Part shown: positions 13,227 to 64,000 of the stretch, piece after piece
Layout of the letters: the number at the start of each line of letters is the position of its first letter
How positions within the stretch are numbered: position 1 is the stretch's first letter
Origin: a virus
DNA: 64,000 bases
Reading direction: 5' to 3' (one strand)
IMG/VR virus record: IMGVR_UViG_3300047476_001426
Location: 1 to 64,000 of that record
Notes under the pieces: model-generated
What the model was told of the DNA's origin: nothing
Databases searched by the model: none
Seen by the model: the letters and a program-made list of their open reading frames with translations, nothing else
Position numbers and translations under genes: made by a program

Positions 13227-13739
13227 TTAAATTCCTCTAAATTCGGATTCTTGAGCAATGGCACAAGTAATTGTTCTGTAATGAGGTCTAAATCCAAACA
13301 TATTGTGTTTATTATCTGATGTTATTTTACCATCGTTTACAACCGTATAGTATCTAACTTTATCTTCAGATTCAGGATAACCGATAAAATCACCATATCT
13401 TATATCAATATCCATTTCTTCTAAATGTTTGATGTAGACAGAAATAGTCATATTACCAGGTTCCAAATACCTATTCACACCTTTTGTATATGAAGTATTC
13501 TTCGGTTCATCAATTTTAACCAAACCGAAAAATTCGGTAGGAGGTAAAAATTTAATTTGGTCCTTACCTACCTCACCATATACATCGTCAGTATCGGTTC
13601 TTTGTCTATCGACCCTGAACAGAACTAATTTCATACCTAAATCACCATGTAAGTATTCTTCCCCCAACTGAACATTTAAATCAAAATCAGTTTGAGAGAA
13701 AAATTTACTTAATCTTGTTATCGGTAGTTTGTTACTCAT
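13227..13739 (-). CDS. Neck/head-completion protein (gp14-like, tentative)
   Basis: 170 aa, containing EEYLHGDLGMKLVLFRVDR, FLPPTEFFGLVKIDEP and DIDIRYGDFIGYPESEDKV, and ending in an aromatic HMFGFRPHYRTITC-like region. The D-x-RYGDF-x-GY pattern is common in head-closure or neck proteins of T4-like phages. It is first in a two-gene late unit with the gp15-like gene, with the late motif 4 bases before the ATG. A neck role is inferred from this pairing and from the nearby sheath and gp13 genes. Confidence 0.5.
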   Translation of the reverse strand: MSNKLPITRLSKFFSQTDFDLNVQLGEEYLHGDLGMKLVLFRVDRQRTDTDDVYGEVGKDQIKFLPPTEFFGLVKIDEPKNTSYTKGVNRYLEPGNMTISVYIKHLEEMDIDIRYGDFIGYPESEDKVRYYTVVNDGKITSDNKHNMFGFRPHYRTITCAIAQESEFRGI

Positions 13740-13743
13740 TTAT

Positions 13744-13751
13744 TATAAATA
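13744..13751 (-). promoter_or_regulatory. Late-type promoter motif TATTTATA for neck genes
   Basis: Exact TATTTATA in sense, 4 bases before the ATG at 13739. Confidence 0.55.
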
Positions 13752-13752
13752 G

Positions 13753-13783
13753 TTCATTTATTGATTCTATTTTGATATATTTA
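13753..13783 (+). promoter_or_regulatory. Weak early-type promoter before SNF2 helicase
   Basis: TTCA (13753-13756), 19-base spacer, TATATTTA (13776-13783), 9 bases before the ATG at 13793. It matches the spacing and most bases of the Bacteroidota promoter but has a poor -33 box. Confidence 0.35.
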
Positions 13784-13792
13784 AGTTATTGT

Positions 13793-15547
13793 ATGCAGAG
13801 TAAGATTCCTGAAATAGATGCGAGGAATATTCTTTCCACTTATGAGGGGTTTAATAACCAACTAATTGAGTGGAAAAGAAAATTAATTGAACTTAAAGGT
13901 TTTCAATTAACAAGACCTCAAGCCGAGTATGTTTTAAAGTACCACGAAGTAGTTCCTCGTGTTGCTAAAAAGTATATTCACATTGTTGAAGGATTTGGTG
14001 ATAAACTCATGGAATCTAAACACCTAACAAAACCACCTGAAAAAATTTGGTGTGAAAAGTTGTTGTGTGAAAGTGAGATGGCTTATCATATATGGGGTAA
14101 AGTATTTGAGTCAGAAAAGAACTATTCAATGTGGGTCCCAAAATCTGCGATTATTCAAGAAGAAAAGAAATTGAATAGAGAGGTTGATTATTCTCCTTAT
14201 GACAAACGACCACCATTACCACATCAAAAAACCGCAATTGAAAAATTATTGGCTAACGATAAGTTTATCCTGGCGGATGATATGGGATTAGGTAAGACCA
14301 CATCCGCAATTATTGCTTCTTTGGAAAGTGGTGCAAAAAAGATTTTAATAATTTGTCCTGCGTCATTGAAAATAAATTGGCAAAGAGAAATTGAAAATTA
14401 CTCAAATAGAAAAACATTAATAGTTGAAGGTCGTAAGTGGGGTTCCACTTTTGATTATTACATTATTAACTATGATATCGTAAAAAACTATCATTCAACA
14501 GAAACACCTGAAATTGGACAGGAAAATAATAATTCAATTGTTAATGAAAAATTTGATTTAGCCATTGTCGATGAAGCACATTATATTTCAAATACGACCG
14601 CTCAAAGAACTAAACTAATTAACGATATTTTAAAGAACATACCAAAAGTTTGGTTACTTACTGGCACCCCAATGACTTCAAAACCAATTAACTATTATAA
14701 CCTACTAAGAATAGTTAATTCAAACGTTACTTTAAATTGGCAGGGTTACGTCAGAAGATATTGTGGTGGATATCAGTTTACCGTAAATAAGAAGAAGATT
14801 TGGAATACGGGTGGTGCAACTAATTTAGATGAACTTAGGTTGAGAACTAAAAATCTTGTACTGAGACGTATGAAGACTGATATATTGGATTTACCTGATA
14901 AAATTATCACCCCAATATTTTTGGATTTAAAAAGTACATATTACGATGAAGAATTGGAAGATTTTTTAAGAATCACAAGTGAGGCAAAAAATAAAGAATC
15001 TTTAAGTATCACCATAAATCGTTTGATGAAAGTGAGACAAATTATTTCACAAGAAAAAATTAGTTATACCTGTGAACTAATTGATAAGTGTTTGGAACAA
15101 GGAAAGAAGATAATTGTGTTTACAAATTTTACAATGTCCTTAGACATGTTACATGAAAAATATAAGAAAAATTCTGTGGTGTTAGATGGTAGAATGTCCA
15201 AAGAAAAAAGACAACAATCTGTAGACCGTTTTCAAAATGAAGACAAGGTGAAGATATTCATATCAAACATCGTAGCGGGTGGAGTGGGAATCACATTAAC
15301 CGCGGCCGAAGTTGTAATTATGAACGATTTATCATTTGTACCCGCTCACCACAGTCAAGCTGAGGATAGAGCTTTTAGATATGGTCAAAAGAAAAATGTG
15401 TTGGTTTATTACCCAATATTCGAAAACACTATTGAGAAAATAGTGTACAATATGTTACAAAAGAAAAAGAATATTATTGACCAAGTTATGGGTGACGGAG
15501 ATTTCTCAGAAAGTTTTGCTCAATCACTTCTCAAAGAGATTCTCTAA
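13793..15547 (+). CDS. SNF2-family DNA helicase/translocase
   Basis: 584 aa from MQSKIPEIDA. Although the frame is open 26 codons upstream, this start leaves room for the promoter and avoids overlapping the neck gene. Residues about 140-320 hold helicase motifs Q/I (PPLPHQKTAIE, LADDMGLGKT), DEAH (260-263) and LTGTP (289-293). The C-terminal RecA lobe has IIVFTNF, FISNIVAGGVGITLTAAE and RAFRYGQ. This is the SNF2/SMARCAL1-like architecture, probably a branch-migration or fork-remodelling ATPase in phage replication and recombination, a role filled by UvsW in T4. The 3' end overlaps the convergent gene by 24 bases. Confidence 0.9.
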   Translation: MQSKIPEIDARNILSTYEGFNNQLIEWKRKLIELKGFQLTRPQAEYVLKYHEVVPRVAKKYIHIVEGFGDKLMESKHLTKPPEKIWCEKLLCESEMAYHIWGKVFESEKNYSMWVPKSAIIQEEKKLNREVDYSPYDKRPPLPHQKTAIEKLLANDKFILADDMGLGKTTSAIIASLESGAKKILIICPASLKINWQREIENYSNRKTLIVEGRKWGSTFDYYIINYDIVKNYHSTETPEIGQENNNSIVNEKFDLAIVDEAHYISNTTAQRTKLINDILKNIPKVWLLTGTPMTSKPINYYNLLRIVNSNVTLNWQGYVRRYCGGYQFTVNKKKIWNTGGATNLDELRLRTKNLVLRRMKTDILDLPDKIITPIFLDLKSTYYDEELEDFLRITSEAKNKESLSITINRLMKVRQIISQEKISYTCELIDKCLEQGKKIIVFTNFTMSLDMLHEKYKKNSVVLDGRMSKEKRQQSVDRFQNEDKVKIFISNIVAGGVGITLTAAEVVIMNDLSFVPAHHSQAEDRAFRYGQKKNVLVYYPIFENTIEKIVYNMLQKKKNIIDQVMGDGDFSESFAQSLLKEIL

Positions 15548-47070: not shown

Positions 47071-47271
47071 ATGATAATCGTAAACGTCAGTAAAGAGAAG
47101 AACCTTGAATCTGCATTAAAAAAATACAAATACAAGGTTCAAAAGACTAAACAAAATGATAAATTGAGGGAGAAACAGGAATATACCAAACCCTCAGTTG
47201 CTAAAAGAAGTAAAAAGTTAAAAGCCATCTACAAACAACAATTATTCACGAATCAAGAAAAATCAAATTAG
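47071..47271 (+). CDS. rpsU: Ribosomal protein bS21-like
   Basis: 66 aa: MIIVNVSKEKNLESALKKYK, then YKVQKTKQNDKLREKQEYTK and PSVAKRSKKLKAIYKQQ. This is the whole bS21 fold pattern (short strand, ALxxYK helix, basic helix with EYxKPSVAxR) and the KPSVAxR form is the one found in Bacteroidota bS21. bS21 binds the 30S platform near the anti-Shine-Dalgarno end of 16S rRNA. It is a lone plus-strand gene inside the minus-strand head cluster and overlaps the convergent 246-aa gene by 9 bases. A TATATTTA box lies 10 bases upstream but its -33 element is poor. Confidence 0.82.
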   Translation: MIIVNVSKEKNLESALKKYKYKVQKTKQNDKLREKQEYTKPSVAKRSKKLKAIYKQQLFTNQEKSN

Positions 47272-56384: not shown

Positions 56385-58403
56385 ATGTCAGTAGATTTTT
56401 TCGAAGAAGGAAATGTTTCCAACCCCAAAAAGACGAGAAAGGGTTCTACCACCCCTATCCTTGATAATTTTTCAAGGGATTTAAACAAAATGGTTGAAGA
56501 AGGTAAAATTGACCCCGTCATCGGTAGAGATGGTGAGGTTAAGAGAATCGCTCAAATTTTATCTCGTAAAAAGAAAAACAACGTAGTAATTGTTGGTGAC
56601 GCAGGTGTTGGTAAATCTGCTTTGGTTGAAAAGTTGGCCCAACTAATTGTTAAGGGTGACTGCCCTTCAAATCTTTTAGATAAAAGGATTGTGTCACTTG
56701 ATTTGACATCATTAGTTGCTGGTACCAAATATAGAGGTCAATTTGAAGAAAGGATTAAGGCCATACTAAATGAATTACAAAACGAACCCAATGTAATTGT
56801 GTTTATTGATGAAATACATACGATGGTTGGTGCGGGTAATGCTAGTGGTTCCATGGATGCTGCTAATATCATGAAACCAGCTTTGGCGAGAGGTGAAATC
56901 CAATGTATCGGTGCAACCACCTTTGATGAATTTAAGAAACACATTGAGAAGGACGGTGCGTTGGTAAGAAGATTCCAAAAAATAATTTTAAAGGAACCGA
57001 CTAAAGAAGAAACGGTACAAATTTTAAATAACTTGAAGGAGTCATATCAAAACTTCCATAAAGTATTTTATGAACCGAATGTGTTTGAAACGATTGTTAA
57101 TCTTTCATCTAGATTTATCACAGATAGACAATTTCCTGATAAGGCGATTGATGTTATGGATGAACTTGGTTCAGACAAAAAAATCAACACCAAAATCCCT
57201 GAAGTGTTGGAAAAACTCAAAAAAGATTCTGACGAGCTAAAGGAAAGAAAAATACAGGTTGTTAAAAGTCAAAATTATGAACAAGCAGCAAAATTGAGGG
57301 ATGAAGAAAGGAAGATATTGAGTAGGTTAGATGAAGAGAAGAAAAAATGGTTGGAAAAACAAAAGGACAATAAAACACCCGTAACTATAGACGATGTATA
57401 TGATATTATCTCGCAAATGACAGGTGTGCCACTCTCTAAAATTGACGAGAGGGAGACAACAAACTTATTAAGTTTAGAAGAAAAATTAAAATCAAAAGTG
57501 ATTGGACAAGATGAGGCCATCTCAATCATATCAAAATCTATCAGAAGAAATAGAGTTGGTATTAAAGATACCAACAAACCTATTGGTTCGTTTATATTCT
57601 TAGGTTCAACAGGTGTTGGTAAAACCTACTTAGCTAAATCAATTGCAGAAATTTTATTTGGTGACCCTGATAAAGTTATACGAGTTGATATGAGTGAGTA
57701 CATGGAAAAACACAATGTTGCTAAACTAATAGGTTCTCCTCCGGGTTATGTTGGGTATGATGAAGGTGGTCAATTGACTGAAAAAATAAAAAACAATCCA
57801 TTTTCAGTTGTCCTATTTGATGAGGTTGAAAAGGCACATAAAGATGTCTTCAATATCCTACTTCAAATTTTGGACGAAGGTCACCTAACAGACTCCTTTG
57901 GTAGGAAGGTAAACTTCACAAATACAATTGTGATTATGACATCAAACATTGGTGCAAAAAAGGTTTCCGAATTTGGTAGAGGAGTTGGTTTTGACTCATC
58001 ATCATCAAACACACAGAATTTTGAAGTTAAAAAATCAATTGTTCAAAAATCTTTGAAACAACATTTTAACCCCGAGTTTTTAAATAGGGTTGATGACATT
58101 ATCAGTTTCAATTCGTTAGATAAAGACGTTATTAAACAAATTATTGGAATTGAACTGAATAAATTGGTTGTGAGATTGAAAGACAAAAACTTCAAAATTT
58201 CATTTGATAAAACAATCATTGAAAGAATTTCAGAACTCAACACACAAGAAGATTATGGTGCTAGACCTATTAAAAGAATCATTCAAAACCTTTGTGAAGA
58301 CTTCTTAAGTGATTCAATTTTGAAAGGTGATATTAAAGAAAATGAAAACATTACTTTGAAATTTAAAGATGGTGAAATAAAAATTTTTAAAAAAAAGGTC
58401 TAA
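56385..58403 (+). CDS. ClpC-like AAA+ unfoldase lacking the N-domain (672 aa)
   Basis: It has two AAA+ modules. D1: GDAGVGKS (71-78), VIVFIDEIH (137-145), LVRRFQKI. A UVR-type motif, QNYEQAAKLRDEER (296-309), lies between the modules and marks ClpC rather than ClpA or ClpB. D2: GSTGVGKT (407-414), SVVLFDEVEKAH, FLNRVDD. After the TSNIGA segment it keeps GVGFD (VGF at 534-536), the kind of loop that docks ClpC onto ClpP. Host ClpC (about 840 aa) begins with two Clp-N repeats that receive adaptors; these are absent and replaced by about 20 residues. The gene is alone, early-type and probably host-derived. Confidence 0.92.
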   Translation: MSVDFFEEGNVSNPKKTRKGSTTPILDNFSRDLNKMVEEGKIDPVIGRDGEVKRIAQILSRKKKNNVVIVGDAGVGKSALVEKLAQLIVKGDCPSNLLDKRIVSLDLTSLVAGTKYRGQFEERIKAILNELQNEPNVIVFIDEIHTMVGAGNASGSMDAANIMKPALARGEIQCIGATTFDEFKKHIEKDGALVRRFQKIILKEPTKEETVQILNNLKESYQNFHKVFYEPNVFETIVNLSSRFITDRQFPDKAIDVMDELGSDKKINTKIPEVLEKLKKDSDELKERKIQVVKSQNYEQAAKLRDEERKILSRLDEEKKKWLEKQKDNKTPVTIDDVYDIISQMTGVPLSKIDERETTNLLSLEEKLKSKVIGQDEAISIISKSIRRNRVGIKDTNKPIGSFIFLGSTGVGKTYLAKSIAEILFGDPDKVIRVDMSEYMEKHNVAKLIGSPPGYVGYDEGGQLTEKIKNNPFSVVLFDEVEKAHKDVFNILLQILDEGHLTDSFGRKVNFTNTIVIMTSNIGAKKVSEFGRGVGFDSSSSNTQNFEVKKSIVQKSLKQHFNPEFLNRVDDIISFNSLDKDVIKQIIGIELNKLVVRLKDKNFKISFDKTIIERISELNTQEDYGARPIKRIIQNLCEDFLSDSILKGDIKENENITLKFKDGEIKIFKKKV

Positions 58404-58594: not shown

Positions 58595-59008
58595 ATGGAA
58601 TATACAAAAGATTTGATACTTGTTCGTGGTATCCCGGGTTCTGGTAAATCGACTTTGGGTGAGGTAATATTATACACCCCAAATAATCCAATGAAACCTT
58701 TATCTGCGGATGATTACTTCATGGATAAAGAAGGTAATTACAACTTTGACCCCTCAAAAATAAGGGAGGCCCATAACGACTGCCAACAAAGATGTGCAAA
58801 CCTGATGATGAATTCAGTTGTCAGAGTTGTGGTTTCAAATACATTCACTCAAGAATGGGAAATGGAACCATATTTTGAAATGGGTCGTCGATATGGTTAT
58901 AGAGTCCATACAATCATTGTTGAAAATAGACACGGTGGTGAGAATGTTCATGGGGTCCCTGAAGACAAAATAGACATAATGAAAAACCGATTTGAAGTTA
59001 AGTTGTGA
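58595..59008 (+). CDS. Polynucleotide kinase-like P-loop kinase (137 aa)
   Basis: Reads KDLILVRGIPGSGKSTLGEV with Walker A GIPGSGKST (about 12-20), SADDYFMDKEGNYNFDPSKI, then REAHNDCQQRC, VVVSNTFTQEWEMEPYF and ENRHGGENVHGVPEDKI. This is the AAA_33-type kinase related to the 5' kinase domain of T4 Pnkp. T4 Pnkp also has a C-terminal 3' phosphatase domain, which is absent. It would phosphorylate 5'-OH ends of RNA or DNA. The stop overlaps the GTG start of the RNA ligase gene, so the two are coupled. Confidence 0.85.
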   Translation: MEYTKDLILVRGIPGSGKSTLGEVILYTPNNPMKPLSADDYFMDKEGNYNFDPSKIREAHNDCQQRCANLMMNSVVRVVVSNTFTQEWEMEPYFEMGRRYGYRVHTIIVENRHGGENVHGVPEDKIDIMKNRFEVKL

Positions 59009-60075
59009 TAGATAGACTGAAAAAATATCATGAAGATGGGTTGTTAATGAGACAAACACACCCAACTAAAGATTTGTACATATGGAATTATACCCCAAGA
59101 GTACAGTATGAATCTTTATGGGATGATATTACTACGCAATGTCGTGGACTCATTACAACTCATTCAGGTGAAGTCATATCAAGACCATTCGGTAAGTTTT
59201 TTAACTATGAAGAGGTTATTGATAAGGATTTAATTCCATGGGACAGTGAGTATGCTCACGTTCAAACAAAAATGGATGGTTCTCTTGGTATATTGTTTTT
59301 TTATGATGGTGAATGGATTATGGCAACAAGAGGTTCATTTACATCTGAACAATCAATTCGAGGATTAGAGATTATAAAATCAAAATACGATTTGAGTAAG
59401 TTTTCTGAGAAATTCACTTATCTATGTGAAATAATTTATCCTGAGAATAGAATCGTGGTAAATTACGGTGAGGATAAAATCACATTCTTATCTATAACCA
59501 CTCCTGAATCAGAATTAAATTGGGCAACATCAATAGCAATATTCCATTCATCAGATATCAAAGAAGAGGACATTGTTGATAGTACTATGGTGACCTTCAA
59601 TAAAGAAACTTTTGAAACTTACAAAAATCTAAACATACCAAATGAAGAGGGATTTGTTATTAGGTTCTACCCTTCTAATTTTAGAATGAAAATAAAGTTT
59701 GAGGAGTATGTTCGTTTACATAGAATATTAACGAATGTGTCTAATAGAGATATATGGGAAGTGCTCCGTACCAATGGTGATATGAAGGAAATACTTGATG
59801 GTGTACCAGATGAATTTTACGATTGGGTTCGCAAAACTAAAGAAGATTTATTATTTCAATACAAACACTTGGAACGTGAATATCAATGGATTTTTAAAAT
59901 CATTAATAGAGCACCCAACATAGAAAATCGAGCGGTTTTCGCGGAATACGCAAAAAGATATAAACACCCTTCAATATTGTTTAATATGTTGGATAATAAG
60001 GATTACTCTCAACAAATTTGGAAGTTAATCTATCCTTCGTATTCGAAACCATTTAATACAAATGAAGATAATTAG
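59005..60075 (+). CDS. T4 Rnl1-like RNA ligase (356 aa)
   Basis: Starts with GTG overlapping the kinase stop (GTGA). The nucleotidyltransferase motif I is HVQTKMDGSLGILFF, with the AMP-accepting Lys at about residue 89. Motif IIIa/IV is NEEGFVIRF and motif V is RMKIKF. An all-helical C-terminal domain follows (DEFYDWVRKTKEDLLFQYK), as in Rnl1 enzymes that repair tRNA. It seals 5'-phosphate and 3'-OH RNA ends, typically after kinase and cyclic-phosphate removal. Direct coupling with the kinase and cREC genes supports an RNA repair role. Confidence 0.9.
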   Translation: MIDRLKKYHEDGLLMRQTHPTKDLYIWNYTPRVQYESLWDDITTQCRGLITTHSGEVISRPFGKFFNYEEVIDKDLIPWDSEYAHVQTKMDGSLGILFFYDGEWIMATRGSFTSEQSIRGLEIIKSKYDLSKFSEKFTYLCEIIYPENRIVVNYGEDKITFLSITTPESELNWATSIAIFHSSDIKEEDIVDSTMVTFNKETFETYKNLNIPNEEGFVIRFYPSNFRMKIKFEEYVRLHRILTNVSNRDIWEVLRTNGDMKEILDGVPDEFYDWVRKTKEDLLFQYKHLEREYQWIFKIINRAPNIENRAVFAEYAKRYKHPSILFNMLDNKDYSQQIWKLIYPSYSKPFNTNEDN

Positions 60076-60586: not shown

Positions 60587-60931
60587 ATGTCAACAAAAGA
60601 ACCGAACAAACCAAAAGACACGGTAATTAAAAAGCTAATACTAAAACAAGATTATAAAAACTTCAGTGATTTTTATAACATCAACAAAGAATCCATTTAC
60701 AGAACCTTAGCTAATCTTTTTAAAAGTTTGAAGAGAAAGGATAAACAAGTGGTTATTTTAGTTTTGGGAGCTAAAATTAATGGACTACAATGGGAGACCG
60801 AGCTAAAGTTTAAAAGACAAGAATCGGTTGTTTTAGTCAGAGATATTTTACCTTTCTTCGAACAAAATGAAGATTACGAAACTTGCGGTGAAATAACGGA
60901 AACCTACAATAAGATTTTAGAGATTCAATAA
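60587..60931 (+). CDS. Small early protein of unknown function (114 aa)
   Basis: A basic N-terminus with KDTVIKKLILKQDYKNFSDF, NINKESIYRTLANLFKSLKR and KQVVILVLGAKINGLQWETE, then an acidic C-terminal helix. It has its own early promoter, which suggests a host-takeover or regulatory protein expressed soon after infection. No family was recognised. Its 3' end overlaps the convergent exported lectin gene by 7 bases. Confidence 0.65.
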   Translation: MSTKEPNKPKDTVIKKLILKQDYKNFSDFYNINKESIYRTLANLFKSLKRKDKQVVILVLGAKINGLQWETELKFKRQESVVLVRDILPFFEQNEDYETCGEITETYNKILEIQ

Positions 60932-63219
60932 GACGAAGAGGATAAATTAGCATCTCCTTTTACAATATACTTAATATTGAAAATTATTGAGGTATTGGTA
61001 AAATTAATTGTGAAATTAGATACTGGTTGCACATTGTTGAAATTCGATAAAGTTATAGAATTAAAATCTGAAGATGTGTACCAATACACTTCGTTAAATG
61101 GTATCATTCCACTAATATTTGCACCCAATAGATAAGCATCAGAAATATTAATTTTACCGTCTTTATTTATATCACCCGCTTTCATTTTAGGACCATTGTT
61201 AAGAACTAAACCTGGTTGAAGTTGGGTTGGAGTATTTTCGTTTTGTGACTCATTAAAAACTTCATTAAAGTCACTCGATGTCAAAGATGGTGTGTACGTT
61301 GGTACTATCTTATAAGTTGAGTTGTATTTGGTTGGGTTAAATGTAAATGAACCTGTTGCACCAACTATTGCGGTCTGTAATAGAGTCTCGACCCCATTTT
61401 CAACCAAATAAAATTTTAATTCAGGTCTTACAGATAAACCTGAAGGGATAGTAACTGTTCCTGATATTGTTTCTGTTATTATTGTAACAGAACCTGAAGA
61501 ACTAAATGCAAATCCACACGTCCCACTCTGTAATTGTGCTCTGAATAGGGTTTTTACGGATATATTTGAATAAGACTGTGATGTGGTTGTATTGACAATA
61601 TCGGTCCACGTAACACCATCATTTGTCGACCTTTGCCATTTAACAATACTACCACTATAACCACTTAAAGTTACTGTTCCTGAGTTTGTTGTTGTGGTAT
61701 GAATCGATGATGATACCGAACCACCAACAGGAGGTGTACCTGATGTCACGGTAATCGTTTTTGAGTCTGAATTAACCGCACTACCACAGTTTGGTGTTTG
61801 TACTTGAACTCGATAATAATAAGTTCCAGCAGAGTTTAACGTTTCTATTAAACTTGTAGTTGTATTAGAAATATCAGTCCAATTTACATTGTCTGTTGAA
61901 CGTTGCCATTTATTGACATTACCTTGTTGACCCGATAATGTTAGTTCTACTTGACCACCGGCACATATTGAATTATTAACTGCAAATATTGTACCCGATT
62001 TTGTTGGTTTAACTGACAAGAACACACTTGATGTTGGTAAACTTGAGCAAGTTGTTGGACTGGTTGAATTTACAATTGCTCTATAGTATGTTGTTTTAGT
62101 TAGATTAGTTAAGGTAATAGTTGATGATGTGCTTGATATTGTTGTACCAGCGGTAAAAAAGTTATCAAATGAAGATTCCCATCTCACAATACTACCTGTA
62201 TATCCATTAAGTGTTAGTGTTGTACTATTACTACCTGAACAAACATTAATATCACCACCACTAATATACCCACTTGATGCCCCACTAATTTCTACGTTTC
62301 TTGTTAATATGGTTGTACTTGTGGTGATGTCACCTGGCATGTCACCATATTCACAAATATATCCGGGTAGAGATGTGTTTGGTAAATCATTCCATTGACC
62401 TAAATTACCTGAATAAAATTGACCGTAATGTTCTCCACCAGCATTATTAGGTTCCCCACCCGCCCATTTTGCATATTGACCTGTAACAGCAGTACTACCA
62501 TTGGAAAATTGAGTTCCCTTCTCAGGTCCTGTAACCCAATGCCACTTTTGTTCAACGGCTGCTTGTGATGCGAACGTAGTGGTACCTTTAGCGGTATTGA
62601 CCACACCCATTTCATCTGAAGCACCAAACCAACCATCTGATGACATTAATTTCCAAATAAAATTATTTTCCGCCTCAGATGACATTGTTGCCAAATAACC
62701 CGCTCTACCAAAATATGAACGATTTTCTGCGGATGTTTTTGAATTTGTCCATGTTGTTGAACCAGAAACATATTCATAAAAATGTTCAGTTAATGGGTTG
62801 TAAAATACAATTCCCGCAACAAATGTTACTCTTCTTTGTAGTGCATAACAGGTAGAGGTTGTTGACCTAAATTCAACTCCTCTTAAAACCGTTTCCCAAT
62901 TTGAAGCTGTTGTTGTTCCATTAAAAACTAACACCCCTGTGGTTGTATTGAATGCGGAAACAGTAATACCAGACGGTAAAGTTGCTGTTGACCTTAATTG
63001 GTCACCACTTACGCCACTTATGTAACTTTGAGATATTTGAACTCTAAACCCATTAATCGTACCATTCGCAGTCAAAGTAAGATTCGGGTCAACCTTTGTC
63101 CAAGTATTAAAACTTGCGGAAAGTGTACCCGTACTCGATGTACCTAAAGAAACTGATGTTGCTTGTGAGTAACCGAGAATCGGTAAAATTAAAAGTAATA
63201 TAAAAATTAAATTTCTCAT
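60925..63219 (-). CDS. Exported multidomain lectin with Ig-like repeats and dockerin-like end (764 aa)
   Basis: It starts with a signal peptide (MRNLIFILLLILPILGYSQA, cut near residue 19) of the form typical for Bacteroidota. A C-type-lectin-like domain (about 138-293) has YAKWAGGEPNN and QWNDLPNT, including the sugar-binding EPN and WND motifs. Three Ig-like modules follow at about 305-403, 405-494 and 496-582, with repeats such as VNKWQRSTDNVNWTDI and IVKWQRSTNDGVTWTD. A transthyretin-like segment (585-645) and a dockerin-type calcium repeat, GDINKDGKINISDAYLLGA (about 683-701), complete it. It overlaps the upstream barrel gene by 4 bases. It is exported to the host envelope rather than being a usual virion protein. 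Confidence 0.85.
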   Translation of the reverse strand: MRNLIFILLLILPILGYSQATSVSLGTSSTGTLSASFNTWTKVDPNLTLTANGTINGFRVQISQSYISGVSGDQLRSTATLPSGITVSAFNTTTGVLVFNGTTTASNWETVLRGVEFRSTTSTCYALQRRVTFVAGIVFYNPLTEHFYEYVSGSTTWTNSKTSAENRSYFGRAGYLATMSSEAENNFIWKLMSSDGWFGASDEMGVVNTAKGTTTFASQAAVEQKWHWVTGPEKGTQFSNGSTAVTGQYAKWAGGEPNNAGGEHYGQFYSGNLGQWNDLPNTSLPGYICEYGDMPGDITTSTTILTRNVEISGASSGYISGGDINVCSGSNSTTLTLNGYTGSIVRWESSFDNFFTAGTTISSTSSTITLTNLTKTTYYRAIVNSTSPTTCSSLPTSSVFLSVKPTKSGTIFAVNNSICAGGQVELTLSGQQGNVNKWQRSTDNVNWTDISNTTTSLIETLNSAGTYYYRVQVQTPNCGSAVNSDSKTITVTSGTPPVGGSVSSSIHTTTTNSGTVTLSGYSGSIVKWQRSTNDGVTWTDIVNTTTSQSYSNISVKTLFRAQLQSGTCGFAFSSSGSVTIITETISGTVTIPSGLSVRPELKFYLVENGVETLLQTAIVGATGSFTFNPTKYNSTYKIVPTYTPSLTSSDFNEVFNESQNENTPTQLQPGLVLNNGPKMKAGDINKDGKINISDAYLLGANISGMIPFNEVYWYTSSDFNSITLSNFNNVQPVSNFTINFTNTSIIFNIKYIVKGDANLSSSSY

Positions 63220-64000
63220 AAATTTATCTTACTACCAACTAAGAAAAATGATAGAATTGGAAATTCAGGGTTTGTACTCATGTTCGCTTTATAGTTAACA
63301 TTTAACTTAAAACGCTTTGAGATTTGATAGTCAAAACCACTACCAATAAAACCACTCACATATCTATCAGTTATTGATACATTGTCTTTAGATGAATAAA
63401 CTAAGGGTGTTGAAATAACGTATAATTCGGGTGACACAATTAATTTTTTACCAACTTTAAATGGTCTTGTGTAAAAAGCGGTGATAGATGGTGAATAATA
63501 ACCATTCTTTTCTTCCGATATAATCGTTGCTGCTGCACTTACGTTAAAACCCGTAATACCATATTTCCCACCATTTAAAATACCACTATAACCAATAAAC
63601 CCTAAATAATTACCATAAGTGTAAACTCCTGTCAGGTTTATGTTATGAATGAACTTCAACTTTTTTGTTTTATTGTAATGTATTTTAGTATATTTTGTTG
63701 ACACAGCAAACTGTTTGAAATTTAACCAAACCATACCAGTTACACCATAACTTGATAAACCTGTCATTGACGATTTACTTGTTCCAATGTTTACTATTGG
63801 GGTGAAAGTTCTATTCAAATTTTGAGCGGAGGTAACATCAGAAGAAACAATGATAGGGTTAGACCTCGCACTACCCCCACCACCTGATTTACCTTTTCCA
63901 CCACTGTTTGAACCACCAGAACCACCGGCATTATTATCATTGTGAGCATCGTTGTTCATTTGTGTTGTTGCACCAACTTCTTCACCTTGTTGTTGGGTGT
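63216..64000 (-). CDS. Outer-membrane beta-barrel-like protein, 5' end outside window
   Basis: The frame is open to the right edge (upstream residues read QQQGEEVGATTQ), so the ATG at 63959 is probably not the start. A Gly/Ser/Asn-rich low-complexity part (SGGKGKSGGGGSARS) precedes a C-terminal stretch of alternating strands, for example MVWLNFKQFAVSTKYTKIHY, GVYTYGNYLGFIGYSGIL, SPSITAFYTRPFKVGKKLIV and FDYQISKRFKLNVNYKANMS, ending FFLVGSKINL. This is a transmembrane barrel-type pattern. It is coupled to the exported lectin gene by an ATGA overlap. A host-surface modification or receptor-type role is inferred. Confidence 0.7.
   Translation of the reverse strand, partial: TQQQGEEVGATTQMNNDAHNDNNAGGSGGSNSGGKGKSGGGGSARSNPIIVSSDVTSAQNLNRTFTPIVNIGTSKSSMTGLSSYGVTGMVWLNFKQFAVSTKYTKIHYNKTKKLKFIHNINLTGVYTYGNYLGFIGYSGILNGGKYGITGFNVSAAATIISEEKNGYYSPSITAFYTRPFKVGKKLIVSPELYVISTPLVYSSKDNVSITDRYVSGFIGSGFDYQISKRFKLNVNYKANMSTNPEFPILSFFLVGSKINL

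Follow-up and report, generated by a model that had tools for sequence, protein, structure and literature searches.

A seven-gene operon of a huge Bacteroidota phage with a predicted role in the surface display of a sugar-binding scaffold during infection

What does a virus do with an exported lectin encoded next to an outer-membrane barrel? The question is raised by the end of a 64,000-nucleotide stretch of viral DNA (the window), which comprises bases 1–64000 of the 136,485-bp IMG/VR virus record IMGVR_UViG_3300047476_001426. The numbering of the record continues that of the window past 64000. A first-pass annotation of the window had described the two genes as a coupled surface pair. We found that they form the 3' end of a seven-gene operon on the minus strand (record 60925–69079), of which five further genes lie beyond the window and encode a CsgG-like protein, two small proteins termed TMb and TMa, a scaffold protein with a sorting tail for the type IX secretion system (T9SS), and the small exported protein S165. 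Neighboring genes are separated by −26 to +59 bases, and a single transcript is therefore likely; upstream of the operon, no match was found to the Bacteroidota promoter motif patterns searched. A role at the cell envelope or surface is well supported by the sequence, because signal peptides, a T9SS tail scoring above cut-off, an outer-membrane-type barrel and conserved synteny occur together. Hence, the envelope or surface role assigned to the pair was retained, but the pairing of lectin and barrel proved too narrow for what is a module of seven genes. With a probability of roughly 60%, we favor the interpretation that, through this module, infected Bacteroidota cells come to display a sugar-binding scaffold at their surface, by means of the host T9SS together with a curli/Fap-like export apparatus.

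The lectin protein

The last gene of the operon, identified as an open reading frame (ORF) and by family and profile searches (60925–63219, minus strand), encodes the lectin protein of 764 residues. The protein starts with a Sec-type signal peptide, MRNLIFILLLILPILGYSQ (residues ~1–19; 63163–63219, minus strand), which shows a basic start, a hydrophobic core and the motif GYSQ; the N-termini of relatives follow the same pattern. A C-type lectin domain was recognized by Pfam and the family profile at residues ~146–291 (62347–62784, minus strand), with EPN at residues 256–258, E263, and WND at residues 276–278. The Lectin_C score of this protein alone was 16.6 bits, below the Pfam cut-off of 22.6, while 24 of 26 non-redundant members of the lectin family matched Lectin_C (best 3e-15) and the family profile matched the solved C-type lectin CEL-I (5.5e-14). 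EPN, the downstream E and WND showed no variation in any of the 26 members. We take these residues to be the counterparts of the five calcium-2/sugar ligands of mannose-binding protein. Since they are unvaried and match those ligand positions, sugar binding by the predicted lectin is probably under selection. A diversity-generating retroelement targeting the lectin was rejected, as the record contains no reverse transcriptase.

The lectin domain is followed by three immunoglobulin (Ig)-like modules at residues 313–404, 405–494, and 495–586 (62008–62283, 61738–62007, and 61462–61737, respectively, all minus strand). Internal repeat alignment showed them to be mutually 36–47% identical, with E values of 1e-6 to 2e-14. 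The annotation of an exported protein with a C-type lectin domain, EPN and WND motifs and three Ig-like modules, which are genuine repeats of each other, was thus confirmed. The C-terminal region of ~180 residues (60928–61461, minus strand) is common to the lectin and scaffold proteins (25% identity, E 1e-12) and includes an F-hand calcium loop, DINKDGKINISD (61138–61173, minus strand), found in the sequence and the family alignment. The first and last Asp of this loop were unvaried in 26/26 family members. A dockerin-type calcium repeat had been proposed here; the single canonical F-hand loop upholds part of this claim, but the Pfam Dockerin_1 match stayed below cut-off. Dockerin type I is defined by two F-hand repeats and only one loop is recognizable in the protein. 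With one loop and a score below cut-off, we therefore use the term dockerin-like.

The scaffold protein and its sorting tail

The scaffold gene (record 66672–68585, minus strand; ORF, Pfam and NCBIfam) encodes a protein with a T9SS type A sorting domain, in addition to a signal peptide, a cohesin-like domain and a region resembling dockerin. This sorting tail (record 66681–66914, minus strand) scored above the cut-offs of both PF18962 (31.5 versus 27 bits) and TIGR04183 (23.4 versus 23 bits). It was found only once in the record, in the scaffold and not in the lectin, and related whole records likewise carry it about once, above cut-off in six of eight. The Pfam Cohesin score of the scaffold was 16.9 bits against a cut-off of 24.1, and its relative in L088, a phage contig with a portal gene that was binned in a bacterial metagenome-assembled genome, scored above the cut-off with 36.8 bits. 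Of 32 scaffold relatives, 13 matched Cohesin (best 5.9e-9), and a PDB search with the scaffold profile returned no match. Docking of the dockerin-like lectin on the cohesin/T9SS protein is more plausible than a coupling to the barrel.

Some relatives have scaffolds without a tail. At that site, one or two small lipoprotein-like genes were observed (L081 8256–8963, L067 6242–6968, and L079 3521–4248) with weak DUF3244 matches and one weak sorting-tail match. That a sorting-tail-like or DUF3244-like sandwich here takes the place of the tail is suggestive only.

The linker-barrel protein, the CsgG-like protein and the small proteins

Directly upstream of the lectin gene lies the gene for the linker-barrel protein (63216–64000 in the window and on to record 64976, minus strand). 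Its ORF ends at 63216 and the lectin gene starts at 63219, in agreement with the 4-base overlap and the barrel-type envelope gene of the first-pass annotation. That annotation had also proposed to complete the gene and look for a signal peptide; completion from the record yielded a protein of 586 residues with a signal peptide, a small N-terminal domain containing a conserved Cys pair, a low-complexity linker of ~280 residues and a C-terminal barrel. The linker, whose 3' part occupies 63861–64000 (minus strand) and continues past the window, varies in length among relatives. The outer-membrane beta-barrel domain (63219–63860, minus strand) was modeled with ~12 strands in FapF-like geometry, at a predicted local distance difference test score (pLDDT) of 88 and a predicted template modeling score (pTM) of 0.75. 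In structure comparison, FapF had the top template modeling (TM) scores among the matches listed, 0.63–0.71.

The CsgG-like protein, TMb, TMa, and S165 are encoded by ORFs at record 65036–65821, 65796–66332, 66326–66667, and 68582–69079, respectively, all on the minus strand. TMb and TMa are small proteins with a hydrophobic N-terminal segment, and Sec-type signal sequences are present in the lectin, scaffold, barrel, CsgG-like and S165 proteins. An ORF for a hydrophobic protein of 84 residues (record 69117–69371) recurs beside or inside the operon in relatives. When the barrel and CsgG-like proteins were compared directly with Pfam, PHROG and NCBIfam, nothing useful emerged, and a profile of the CsgG-like family gave only noise against PDB sequences. 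A protein from Ignavibacteriales aligned with the phage CsgG-like protein over 230 positions at 35% identity (E 2e-44). This homologue has a lipobox and scores above the Pfam CsgG cut-off. Because the gene next to it resembles S165 (E 8e-6), the CsgG-like/S165 pair is probably of cellular ancestry. The Ignavibacteriales operon (L089 9986–16025) encodes the CsgG lipoprotein, the S165-like protein, a transglutaminase-like protein and a CHASE2 adenylate cyclase, the latter reminiscent of the adenylate cyclase reported for pelagiphage curli clusters.

Conservation of the operon

A scan of IMG/VR for the CsgG-like protein identified 523 encoding stretches, and the best 80 of these 523 were reduced to 30 groups at 97% identity. 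S165, scaffold, TMa, TMb, barrel and lectin were present in 28, 27, 26, 26, 29, and 22 of the 30 groups, respectively. In most of them, the genes follow the order S165-scaffold-TMa-TMb-CsgG-barrel-lectin and nearly abut or overlap. The assertion that phages rarely encode such systems is not tenable for this phage group, as the core gene occurs in over 500 viral stretches. The CsgG-like protein is the slowest-evolving protein of the operon and the lectin often the fastest; identities to L013 were 89% and 46%, respectively. Among annotated phages, the cultured Flavobacterium phage immuto (NC_055915) is the nearest, and its complete genome contains a diverged operon. Its genes gp013–gp019 correspond to the lectin, the scaffold (as two genes, one for each half), TMa, CsgG-like, linker-barrel and S165, and its product names include 'lectin C-type' and 'cohesin'.

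In some relatives a PA14 protein stands in the lectin's place, and in L088 this position is taken by a different exported protein ending in a similar dockerin-like motif. Such an exchangeable tip on a conserved base matches what is expected of an adhesin display system. After the variant tip gene, L088 encodes an extra protein of 273 residues (13504–14325) that resembles a linker-less barrel.

The phage and its gene content

The record contains a contractile-tail gene set, with tail sheath, baseplate hub, major head protein, portal and terminase. A gene for ribosomal protein S21 (bS21) lies at 47080–47238 on the plus strand, the capsid genes being on the other strand. S21 was found in 7/7 large IMG/VR relatives tested, and not in Flavobacterium phage immuto. 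Its presence here and in the large relatives places the phage among the bS21-encoding huge Bacteroidota phages (PMC9723584). The predicted hosts of that group are Bacteroidetes, and a CRISPR (clustered regularly interspaced short palindromic repeats) spacer ties one member to Flavobacterium (Chen et al, 2022; PMC9723584).

Translations across ~20 kb (record 91049–111805) indicated nucleotide-sugar, glycosyltransferase, aminotransferase and FkbM-like genes, with database matches for glycosyltransferases. This gene set is predicted to function in the synthesis of surface or virion glycans. The presence of such a cluster elsewhere in the record fits remodeling of the surface and is counted in favor of display; glycan genes of the bS21 phage group have already been interpreted as a superinfection defense through modification of lipopolysaccharide (LPS) (PMC9723584).

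Just past the 3' end of the operon is a homologue of RNA ligase/tail-fiber attachment catalyst (phrog_562; window 59005–60075), and a Clp-type ATPase of 672 residues (phrog_4871) is encoded at window 56385–58403. A tRNA cluster (record 69787–78458) comprises 26 genes, which together serve 19 amino acids, Ala being the one missing; one of the tRNAs has a CUA anticodon. TAG ends four of 116 ORFs of at least 120 residues and makes up ~17% of stop trinucleotides. Scarce TAG stops together with a CUA-anticodon tRNA could possibly indicate amber suppression, or mere avoidance of TAG. Recoding was not reported for related genomes (Chen et al, 2022; PMC9723584).

Proposed mechanism and alternative explanations

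From the domains, signals, gene packing and conservation described above, we infer how the products might be localized and dock, which of them might form a conduit, and for what purpose. Five proteins carry Sec-type signals, and the sorting domain at the end of the scaffold is of T9SS type A; the host T9SS would move the scaffold through the outer membrane. The lectin would then bind the cohesin-like domain of the scaffold with its dockerin-like end, exposing the Ig stalk and a calcium-dependent lectin head. The CsgG-like protein, S165, TMa, TMb, and the long-linker protein with the FapF-like barrel would make up a phage-made conduit or anchor in the envelope, which might serve the export or assembly of components without a sorting tail, such as the lectin. 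The sugar-binding head could render infected cells adhesive, so that sibling hosts are captured or cells stay together; alternatively, it could mask or alter surface glycans such that rival phages are excluded. The functions suggested in the first-pass annotation (a block of superinfection, polysaccharide binding or cell aggregation) are possible roles of the module. The fuller picture, in which the phage sends its own adhesin scaffold to the host T9SS and couples it to a curli/Fap-like apparatus, building a cohesin-dockerin lectin coat with exchangeable tips that gathers hosts or excludes competitors, is offered as a tentative proposal.

Several observations weigh against display. None of 18 phage CsgG-like members matched Pfam CsgG, and none of the 18 had a lipobox. 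The AlphaFold model of the CsgG-like protein was only fair (pLDDT 66, pTM 0.56), and with this model Foldseek recovered CsgG at E ~1e-6 but with a TM-score of ~0.4, PelC, FlgT and HpaA being similar. Any pore formed by the phage protein is thus putative. The likeness of the barrel to FapF is limited to barrel geometry, and other 12-stranded barrels match too, with KdgM, NanC, PcoB and autotransporter barrels among the matches. Dockerin_1 was matched by the lectin protein at E=0.007 and 16.9 bits (cut-off 22.9), and at E≤0.01 by 4/26 family members. Finally, endolysin adjacency in 12/30 groups leaves room for a role in lysis.

Lysis is the main rival to surface display, although we regard it as unlikely. 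TMb and/or the 84-residue protein would be a holin, the CsgG-like protein and barrel would open or weaken the outer membrane in concert with endolysin, and the lectin and scaffold would be late passengers. An endolysin gene (phrog_181, E 1e-66 to 1e-70) is indeed inserted between TMb and CsgG in L024, lies 26–28 bp after the lectin in six of the 30 groups and no more than ~1.3 kb away in another five. The operon repeatedly contains small hydrophobic proteins, and a lysis role was suggested for the CsgG of methylophage Melnitz (PMC9004378). However, the endolysin homologue of the phage's own record is ~50 kb from the operon, and immuto has its holin and endolysin ~27 kb away. TMb and the 84-residue ORF were considered as holins and rejected, their family matches being no better than noise. 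Lysis also leaves the T9SS tail, the cohesin, the conserved sugar ligands and the exchange of tips unexplained, and adjacency to endolysin may be a simple marker of late expression, which would suit surface display as well. A PelBC-like export system, with a ring of CsgG fold and a barrel secreting a glycan made by the phage sugar cluster and the lectin keeping it at the surface, is less probable still. PelC is among the fold matches, nucleotide-sugar and glycosyltransferase genes are at hand, and GfcD/YjbH are fusions of polysaccharide export barrels with FapF-like ones (PMC9603273). Yet the glycan cluster is outside the operon, ~20 kb off, and no synthase or copolymerase is evident within the operon. 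The known exopolysaccharide barrels are, to our knowledge, larger than ~12 strands. The sugar genes are, moreover, already accounted for by LPS modification (PMC9723584).

Two further explanations are much less probable. Lectin-fold receptor-binding proteins do occur in phages, and the operon shares its strand with many structural genes. Nevertheless, it is very improbable that the lectin and barrel are structural or receptor-binding proteins of the virion: virion assembly in the cytoplasm does not agree with an outer-membrane-type barrel, signal peptides and a T9SS tail, the tail and head genes are apart from the operon, and the PHROG matches of the operon are weak. The domains of the operon are typical of Bacteroidota bacteria, as would be expected had a bacterial operon been joined to a phage contig by contamination or misassembly. 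This explanation was refuted and retains a negligible probability, as the operon recurs across dozens of viral contigs, in the complete genome of a cultured phage and on a portal-bearing contig, and only three relatives were found in bacteria and archaea (one genome per species, 84,980 species).

Comparison with known systems

Phage curli operons are the nearest precedent for the proposed display module. Those of HTVC008M-like pelagiphages and methylophage Melnitz (curli, or type VIII secretion) are likewise phage-encoded envelope operons with a CsgG-class protein (PMC7029224, PMC9599517, PMC9004378), and for pelagiphage curli, sibling capture and superinfection defense were proposed (PMC7029224, PMC9599517). 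In contrast, the present operon has no recognized CsgF, and its CsgG-like protein lacks a lipobox and a Pfam CsgG match; it has instead a T9SS-tailed cohesin scaffold, a C-type lectin and a separate FapF-like barrel, and is associated with Bacteroidota hosts. Curlin repeats were absent from the record (136,485 bp, possibly a fragment). By strict membership, the operon is not curli, just as its dockerin is not canonical.

FapF, the exporter of the Pseudomonas functional amyloid Fap, consists of a signal peptide, an N-terminal domain, a linker and a C-terminal 12-stranded barrel. The phage barrel protein has a similar domain layout, but no sequence similarity to FapF was detected, its N-terminal domain has a conserved cysteine pair, and no Fap-type amyloid subunit was recognized in the phage. 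The combination of Sec signal and type A sorting domain in the scaffold is that of T9SS cargo adhesins of Bacteroidota, from which it differs in being encoded by a phage and in having cohesin- and dockerin-like domains and a lectin partner gene in the same operon. As in cellulosomes, cohesin-like and dockerin-like modules are found on separate exported proteins; unlike cellulosomes, the phage module has no enzymes and a single recognizable F-hand loop, and its cohesin-dockerin pairing is predicted. Surface-glycan genes proposed to remodel the surface against superinfection were described in the same phage group (Chen et al, 2022; PMC9723584), the main text of that study being silent on lectin and secretion, whereas the operon described here is a probable module for protein display.

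Significance

The T9SS tail, the cohesin- and dockerin-like parts and the lectin set the module apart from phage curli, and the searchable open literature contained no description of these seven genes as a module. If the display interpretation is true, this would be, within the literature searched, the first described phage module that uses the T9SS to place a lectin on the infected cell. The question of why phages carry curli-like operons would become directly testable in a cultured pair, phage immuto and Flavobacterium sp. LMO8. A virus with such a module could re-program the sticking of its host to other cells or viruses, and since the module is widespread in huge Bacteroidota phages, it would bear on the interactions of infected cells in lakes.

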